Shown here: positions 6,464-33,528 of the stretch, in pieces
How the letters are laid out: each line of letters starts with the position of its first letter
Numbering within the stretch: position 1 is the stretch's first letter
NCBI GenBank assembly: GCA_012521995.1
Contig: JAAYLH010000109.1
Coordinates: 1 to 38,755, forward strand
Reading direction: 5' to 3'
Source of the DNA: Bacteroidales bacterium
GTDB taxonomy: Bacteria; Bacteroidota; Bacteroidia; Bacteroidales; UBA7960
DNA: 38,755 nucleotides
The notes under the pieces: model-generated
What the model was told of the DNA's origin: nothing
The model's input: only the letters and a program-made list of their open reading frames with translations
Database searches by the model: none
Program-made: the position numbers and the translations under genes

Positions 6464-7210
6464 TTATCGTCTTAGAGATGCTTTGCTGAATATGTGATCG
6501 GGGATGTCCTGGTTAAATTGGATGCTGGTGACATTAAACTCGGTGCCGTCACCTTGCTTAAGCATATCCTTGAACACCATTTTGGTGGGATACCAGCGCC
6601 CCTCTATTTGCTTCACTTCCGAAAGGGTGGTGCGCTTCAACAGTTGCCCGCTCTTGGCAAAAAGCTCTTCCAGCAGGGGCACATAACGCTCACTGTCGAT
6701 CCATATTCTGCGTGAGTCATAGGCAAGATCTGATGCCTTTGCTTTCAACTGCAATACATAGGTGGGGCGACCGTTAATAATCTCCGTACCGTTTAGTGTT
6801 GCTGTATAAACATCCGTCAGCTTATGGTCCTCCATCATATCCTCATAAGAGAGGTCAGAGCCCATCACCGACTGGCGGAGCATATGCCCCGAGATCTGAA
6901 TGATGCGGTCAGTGGCAGGGGAGTAGATCCAAAGCTGGTTTTCAAGTTTCAGCATCTTGGTACCCGCCTCACGGGGAGGGGAGAGGTATTCGGAAAAGGC
7001 TTGCCTGTCGCCCACAGCAAAGGTGCGCACCGTCATTGTACGGCTACCTCGTCGCCCGTGAATGGTCATGCTCGATTCAACGATGCTGTTCTCCGAATAC
7101 ATATTGCGGTCAACGCGGTCAAGGATCTCATTGGCCGTGGGCTGTGCCATACCTGTTAAGGCAAACAGGCTCAAACCCAAAAGCAAAACAGCGGTTTTAA
7201 ATTTTTTCAT
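6464..7210 (-). CDS. Outer-membrane lipoprotein-sorting protein, LolA-like
   Basis: A 248-residue periplasmic protein with a signal peptide (MKKFKTAVLLLGLSLFALTGMAQ). The mature part resembles the LolA-like family typified by COG2834: ANEILDRVDRNMYSENSIVE at the start, then strands with MTIHGRRG, a LWIYSPATDRIIQISG segment, ILDR-type helices and SEVKQIEGRWYPTKMVFKD near the end. These fold as a half-barrel that carries acyl chains of lipids or lipoproteins. A longer start at 7231 adds seven residues (MKNEKGK); I prefer 7210 because AAGGG lies just upstream and the signal peptide is cleaner. It follows the permease gene, fitting a carrier that accepts cargo from the ABC complex. Confidence 0.88.
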   Translation of the reverse strand: MKKFKTAVLLLGLSLFALTGMAQPTANEILDRVDRNMYSENSIVESSMTIHGRRGSRTMTVRTFAVGDRQAFSEYLSPPREAGTKMLKLENQLWIYSPATDRIIQISGHMLRQSVMGSDLSYEDMMEDHKLTDVYTATLNGTEIINGRPTYVLQLKAKASDLAYDSRRIWIDSERYVPLLEELFAKSGQLLKRTTLSEVKQIEGRWYPTKMVFKDMLKQGDGTEFNVTSIQFNQDIPDHIFSKASLRR

Positions 7211-7239
7211 TTTTCCCTTTTCATTTTTCATTTTTCAAA

Positions 7240-20513: not shown

Positions 20514-20534
20514 ATTCCATCTCCTAGGGTAAAA

Positions 20535-20644
20535 CGTAGTCAACACGTATTTTAAACGGATCTAACACGTATTTTAAACGTATTTTGTACGTCTAAGGTA
20601 CGTCTAAGGTACGTGTTAAGTACGTCTAATCTACGTTTAAAGTA
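20535..20644. repeat. Ten-unit tandem array of degenerate 11-nt repeat
   Basis: The stretch divides exactly into ten 11-base units with no gaps. Every unit begins CG and ends A, nine of ten read CGT, and nine of ten have T at position 5. Units 6 and 7 are identical (CGTCTAAGGTA); units 2 and 4 are identical (CGTATTTTAAA); the last is CGTTTAAAGTA. The consensus is about CGTnTnnnnTA. The period is close to one helical turn. Many units contain TAA or TTAA, so reading is blocked in most frames, which argues against coding. It resembles the unit CGGTTAAACTA of the array at 33467-33528. Confidence 0.85.
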
Positions 20645-20793
20645 GGGCCCGGATGCGACCCTGAATGAGCCCGGGAATATTCAGACATGTGTGTTGGAAA
20701 AGATTAATTTTTGACCAGTTTCTTTGACTACTGGAATGGAGGAGGGGGGGAAATGCCCCGGGTTTGCCTATTGGGGTGAGGCACGGCAAAGAA

Positions 20794-20823
20794 GGGGCTG
20801 AGCCAGCAATTGGAGTCAGCCCC
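20794..20823 (-). terminator. Intrinsic terminator after the beta-galactosidase gene
   Basis: On the minus strand GGGGCTGA pairs with TCAGCCCC across a 14-base loop and is followed by TTCTTT. It lies about 90 bases beyond the GH2 stop codon. Confidence 0.6.
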
Positions 20824-20910: not shown

Positions 20911-24168
<3,258 letters not shown>

Positions 24169-33466: not shown

Positions 33467-33528
33467 AACCGTAGTTTAACCGTACTTTAACCAATTACAA
33501 TTGGTTAAAGTACGGTTAAACTACGGTT
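33467..33528. repeat. Perfect 30-bp inverted repeat built from 11-nt units
   Basis: The left arm is 33467-33496 and the right arm 33499-33528; they match at all 30 positions, separated by the two bases AC. Read inward the right arm holds direct copies of TACGGTTAAAC, and the left arm carries the reverse complement. The unit CGGTTAAACTA resembles the CGTTTAAAGTA unit of the array at 20535-20644. As RNA this would form a very long stable hairpin between convergent genes. It is preceded at 33423-33437 by the same leader-like motif found before the other array. Confidence 0.9.

Follow-up and report, generated by a model that had tools for sequence, protein, structure and literature searches.

The window, that is, the whole 38,755-nt stretch of DNA analysed here, carries members of an intergenic repeat that is dispersed over at least 97 places in the genome (G000), divided among three related families (46 in A, 21 in B and 30 in C/D), and is built of 11-nt units that run in two facing arms in a fixed register. 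The usual debate over dispersed palindromes in bacteria is whether they are selfish DNA or RNA hairpins. Here the spacing and seven of the 11 letters are kept, the spacers are free and the arms of the long family show no covariation, which suggests an array that is read by a protein. We tentatively favour, at slightly under an even chance, a selection-kept array of sites for a DNA-binding protein that is used in local chromosome organisation or insulation and spreads by copying. In that case both the full set of sites across the genome and the protein that reads them are still to be found, and the array itself could be used as bait for the binder.

The window array and its surroundings

A first-pass annotation had described ten gapless 11-nt units at 20535-20644, and direct reading of the sequence agrees: units 1-5 from 20535 are CGTAGTCAACA, CGTATTTTAAA, CGGATCTAACA, CGTATTTTAAA and CGTATTTTGTA, and units 6-10 are CGTCTAAGGTA, CGTCTAAGGTA, CGTGTTAAGTA, CGTCTAATCTA and CGTTTAAAGTA. 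As it had also stated, all ten units start with CG and end with A, nine of the ten have T at position 5, and two pairs are identical (units 2 and 4, units 6 and 7). Tandem Repeats Finder reports a period of 11 over 20545-20586 and 20587-20644. What had not been noticed is that the register flips at ~20588. The period of the supposed single tandem array is exact, but the array is actually an inverted pair, with two arms that face each other, each with about five ACGTANNTNAN units; a simple tandem array was rejected on reading the copies side by side, because the register inverts at the centre. Similarly, the CG singled out as the invariant element is indeed constant, but the conserved motif is ACGTANNTNA, more than CG.

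The left arm of this family-A element (20534..20588, plus strand) has five 11-nt units in the ACGTANNTNAN frame, and the right arm (20588..20647, minus strand), the one nearer the family consensus, has five oppositely oriented units ending in TACGT and, as its last, a degenerate unit. The core, taken as the whole lag-11 self-similar stretch, covers 20528..20656 (no strand assigned). Rfam 15 at gathering score returned only one tRNA for the window and no match to the array.

The array lies in a gap of 661 bp between a gene of the CDP-alcohol phosphatidyltransferase family (PF01066; 19674..20249, minus strand), the start of which faces the array, and a family 2 glycosyl hydrolase gene of the beta-galactosidase type (20911..24156, minus strand), the end of which faces it. 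By eye, a G+C-rich hairpin (20794..20823, minus strand) is present between the beta-galactosidase gene and the array and is possibly the terminator of that gene; a simple terminator scan listed none in this gap. A second element, of family B and absent from the first-pass annotation, is found at 33467..33528 (no strand assigned), with perfect 30-bp palindrome arms, a 2-base centre and units of the form CCGTA(G/C)TTTAA. It is probably in a convergent gap, because the 55-aa ORF to its left is probably spurious. The window also contains a heptamer tandem array, TTTTTCA in five copies, at 7203-7237.

Copies in the genome, in relatives and in other taxa

The 46 family-A copies comprise 33 from the first search and 13 from a later one, and the 30 C/D places are those at E 0.01 or better, 27 of which are covered by direct comparison with the C core. 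L032 and L035 were taken out of C, both being family A. Six C copies (L202, L207, L215, L218, L223 and L225) were left out of the pairing, flank and target-site-duplication analyses because one copy was kept per identical 50-bp core. They are included in the gene-context count, as are the 13 later A copies; the C set used there has 30 loci, including two of family A and L195, which is outside the E 0.01 list. When copies are aligned side by side, ACGTANNTNAN units stand on the left and their reverse complements on the right, over an element of ~120-250 bp. By eye, different unit types are joined in one 11-nt register at L230, L231 and L304. The composite array at L304 (G000:C63:47000-50100), where CCATCTCCGTA-type units are joined to GTTTAACCG, is perhaps a further family.

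A pattern of four ACGT cores has 157 matches in the genome when spaced at period 11 and none at period 12, and the period-11 pattern is not chance. In a sample of 438,755 bp (20 stretches of 20 kb at positions chosen blind to sequence on 20 contigs, plus the window), which is not fully random because hits of family A or B had already pointed to the 20 contigs, lag 11 gave 9 stretches at 8 places (threshold 29/44), and lags 8, 9, 10, 12 and 13 gave 0 or 1 stretch each; lag 7 also gave 9 stretches, a separate heptamer class. Peaks occur at lags 11, 22 and 33, and the flanks around the elements show no periodicity. Eleven of the 15 strongest long palindromes in the sample are 11-periodic, and a twelfth has its best lag at 11, at background level only.

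No predicted gene, as called with a home-made ORF caller, holds an element centre. The gaps of 91 of 95 elements could be typed (50 tandem, 34 convergent and 7 divergent). Compared with 290 background gaps in a 400-kb sample (206 tandem, 41 convergent, 43 divergent), convergent gaps are enriched (p 4e-6) and divergent ones not significantly low (p 0.11), whereas compared with the 34 gaps of at least 300 bp, divergent gaps are scarce (p 4e-4) and convergent ones not significantly enriched (p 0.20). Convergent gaps free of arrays have a median of 57 bp, and the four that bear one span 328-767 bp. The flanking genes are ordinary, with 150 proteins falling into small clusters only, the largest of 7. 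The polarity of family-A elements has no link to gene direction (14 of 25), which is what sites in DNA, rather than in RNA, would show, and with regard to replication polarity, element orientation has no link to local GC skew (18 of 46 positive).

Other features were seen beside some elements. At three places, L022 and L029 (family A) and L049 (family B), elements of this genome lie just upstream of DUF6266 genes (PF19781), and by eye the start of a DUF6266-like protein lies downstream of element L068 in the related genome G003. In family A, terminator-like hairpins are often found by eye ~175-200 bp from the centre; the array lies beyond them. Such hairpins (L009-L040; GAGGCCGTCTC...GAGGCGGCCTC type, with a run of T residues) are alike between unrelated genes and are possibly a separate repeat family. 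The idea that the element is larger, with inverted ends at about 200 bp, was considered and rejected, the similarities looking by eye like intrinsic terminators of the flanking genes; a few copy pairs do share longer flanks.

Searches in relatives were made for families A and B. At the orthologue of the window site in G002, the matched stretches are 127 bp apart and there is no array. In G003 the beta-galactosidase gene is missing at this site, and the site of the window's family-B element has no array and also lacks the next gene. G001, of the same genus, gave no copy with family-A queries and no B match within an 18-kb query. Some arrays are shared by G002 and G003 at orthologous sites, and in one such pair the difference is exactly one 11-nt unit; other places in these two genomes are similar in the element only (L069/L076, 244 bp at 95%; L288/L070, 165 bp at 91%). 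Judging from these sequence comparisons, copies have moved within the genus. A lag scan of 36 stretches from relatives including G001-G003 (402,544 bp, threshold 28/44) found no lag-11 array.

Farther afield, G027, which belongs to another family, has five places with facing arms in the same layout, the units fitting ACGT, T8 and A10. The first-pass annotation had made its reading depend on the pattern recurring in this genome and in relatives. That reading survives, because the pattern recurs at at least 97 places here and in G002, G003 and G027, but only 3 of 295 genomes in the class, the present one among them, have the four-core pattern, and phylum-wide spread is not supported. Among named genomes, the five-core pattern gave at least 111 stretches, and 54 of the 80 matches listed have Bacteroidota in the title; the matches listed are mostly plain tandem arrays, and a genome often has several loci that share one unit. 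Rumen and gut Bacteroidales (L083-L162, e.g. RGIG9891, RGIG8161 and RGIG7370), for example, have plain ACGT arrays of period 11, each genome using one unit at several loci. The 56 pattern loci in other taxa are from Bacteroidota (53) and Ignavibacteriales (3). The convergent excess is not seen there, since only 2 of the 23 loci typed, with a codon model trained on this genome, are convergent (13 tandem, 8 divergent).

One family-A element used as a query had no match in a search for a phage or plasmid source. Viral contigs contain 41 stretches with the five-core pattern, most of them, by eye, of other units. Three near-identical viral stretches (L325, L326 and L335) look by eye like family A; two read ACGTAGTTNNN-like period-11 units beside a hairpin and the third is the reverse complement.

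Constraint on the units and its possible causes

Within the unit, information is concentrated at positions 1-5, 8 and 10, with little at 6, 7, 9 and 11, in a profile built from units that were picked by positions 1-5, 8 and 10 themselves. In a profile search that allows indels, 66 family-A arms (3,956 aligned bases) showed not a single one, and the same search recovered 162 of 198 planted single indels; the 11-bp spacing is thus kept, as the first-pass annotation had held. At four orthologous loci of G002 and G003, with the pair L065/L066 trimmed because of poor alignment, 8 of 300 motif positions, 17 of 152 free positions and 83 of 1148 flank positions differ (motif versus free, p 3.5e-4). 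Labelling by the other genome gives 1/258, 13/128 and 94/1214, respectively. A neutral simulation with identical labelling had a mean of 7.8%, and the observed 2.7% was never reached in 300 runs. Six of the 8 motif changes sit in the pair L062/L072, without which the counts are 2/218, 11/110 and 32/783. From these four loci, the motif positions appear to be under purifying selection. Gene conversion would have made the free positions uniform as well.

This constraint is best read, as suggested earlier, as the mark of a protein on one face of the DNA, since in orthologues the motif varies less than the free positions and the flanks, but the binder is as yet putative and the binding is what we infer. 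Each unit would be a site read at ACGTA (positions 1-5), T8 and A10 by a sequence-specific DNA-binding protein, which may bind along one face with a protomer every 11 bp, such that two facing filaments would form a dyad complex in the gaps between genes. The most likely use would be local chromosome organisation or insulation between transcription units, and the element would also multiply by copying, as REPs and MITEs do. A chromosomal site system, with ~100 facing ten-site arrays per genome that lie between transcription units and on which an oligomerising protein takes one site per 11-bp turn and so anchors or organises the nucleoid, the sites being copied, seems to us doubtful. A general chromosome function is not indicated, because G001 gave no family-A copy and most genomes of the class lack the pattern.

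The element could instead be a selfish, non-autonomous MITE- or REP-like repeat with an 11-bp minisatellite, moved in trans and of no function to the host, which is a real possibility, if not a probable one. Its gene context would then reflect the loss of copies that hit genes or promoters; in one variant, the main rival in mechanism, the moving enzyme would itself read the unit motif. Copies at unrelated sites are near-identical (up to 100% over 60-67 bp), and this, the element-only similarity between places in G002 and G003, the lack of an array at the window site in G002 and the failure to find any copy in G001 all agree with selfish spread. The length (50-1000 bp in MITEs), intergenic position, copy number (at least 97 places) and absence of a transposase inside are also those of MITEs. 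The element ends are, by eye, of a weak CC-TTTCA type. Against a selfish repeat stands a motif that is kept in place at orthologous loci while the free positions and flanks change. The lack of signs of a mover also speaks against it: no 5-base direct repeat was found as a target-site duplication at a fixed offset beyond the array, a search that variable ends would escape, and the only Y1 transposase gene found in the genome (L214, G000:C20), which lies 154 bases from a contig end, is not flanked by such an array as a RAYT partner would be, the palindromic repeats around it being, by eye, of another type.

Conservation of a hairpin, in RNA or as a DNA cruciform, with the 11-nt period equal to one A-form turn, is improbable. 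It would suit families B and C, which are perfect or near-perfect palindromes, fold as RNA far better than their shuffles (z -9.6 and -10.3) and have arms that covary at few positions, in B those numbered 6 and 9, which are free. Template switching at palindromes is another process that could maintain the symmetry of B and C. Over the whole arm, however, pairing in B is only z 1.3 above shuffles, and in C, at z 4.3, the best shuffle exceeds the observed value and the covariation signal is partly that of sub-families (L058 was left out of the pairing analysis). In family A, pairing at the spacer positions is 0.491 for an element's own arms and 0.474 and 0.471 for shifted or foreign ones, that is, without covariation, and an RNA hairpin was rejected for this family; a pairing z of 13.1 obtained with freely chosen centres was discarded, the phases differing between elements and the shuffle thus being invalid. 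The window family-A element does fold as RNA moderately better than its shuffles (z -3.7 and -2.7), which counts against the protein-site reading. A polarity indifferent to gene direction also argues against the hairpin. One family-A arm is nearer the consensus, with pairwise identities at free positions, which played no part in choosing that arm, of 0.74 versus 0.52 (17 copies) and, in a second group, of 0.53 versus 0.35 (29 copies, a few A1 copies misgrouped); the greater degeneracy of the other arm also weighs against the protein-site reading.

Very unlikely, in our judgement, is a sequence-independent site of bending or wrapping, for example by gyrase or a nucleoid protein, in which CG and T.A steps alternate per half turn, an idea that draws on the site preferences of gyrase. 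The conserved CG and T.A are half a turn apart, different unit types share one register (by eye) and convergent gaps are in excess over all gaps, but this excess loses significance against gaps of at least 300 bp and a bend would not need letters as specific as the conserved ones.

Comparison with known systems

The unit of the repeat in parC of plasmid R1 is likewise 11 bp. The centromere parC is a single plasmid locus bound by ParR, with its own par genes, unlike the ~97 chromosomal places with inverted arms found here (PMC4949242). The TAACTGA direct repeats of Beggiatoaceae, for which a post-transcriptional role has been proposed, are similar in forming many sets of short intergenic direct repeats per genome, but have a unit of 7 nt rather than 11 (PMC4679880). 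REP families tagged GTAG or CGTC are described as having stems of 5-13 bp and a tag tetranucleotide, with GTAG tied to RAYT (PMC3733652). They share with our elements a short, palindromic and dispersed nature and a position mostly between convergent or unidirectional genes, but have no 11-nt array (PMC3733652), and the RAYT link was not seen here.

Facing 11-nt arrays in Bacteroidota were not found in the open-access literature, most subscription journals being outside the search. The nearest published element found in the order is BrickBuilt, a MITE of Porphyromonas gingivalis with 23-nt direct repeats and 19 copies in one strain, which has a leader, a tail and inverted-repeat ends resembling insertion sequences (PMC4596501). 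The 23-nt unit is not found in our elements, where the unit is 11 nt and the lag analysis has no peak at 23. They also differ in their two facing arms, their ~97 places and their conserved register, and resemble BrickBuilt in that both are Bacteroidales minisatellites of variable repeat number within a dispersed intergenic element (PMC4596501).
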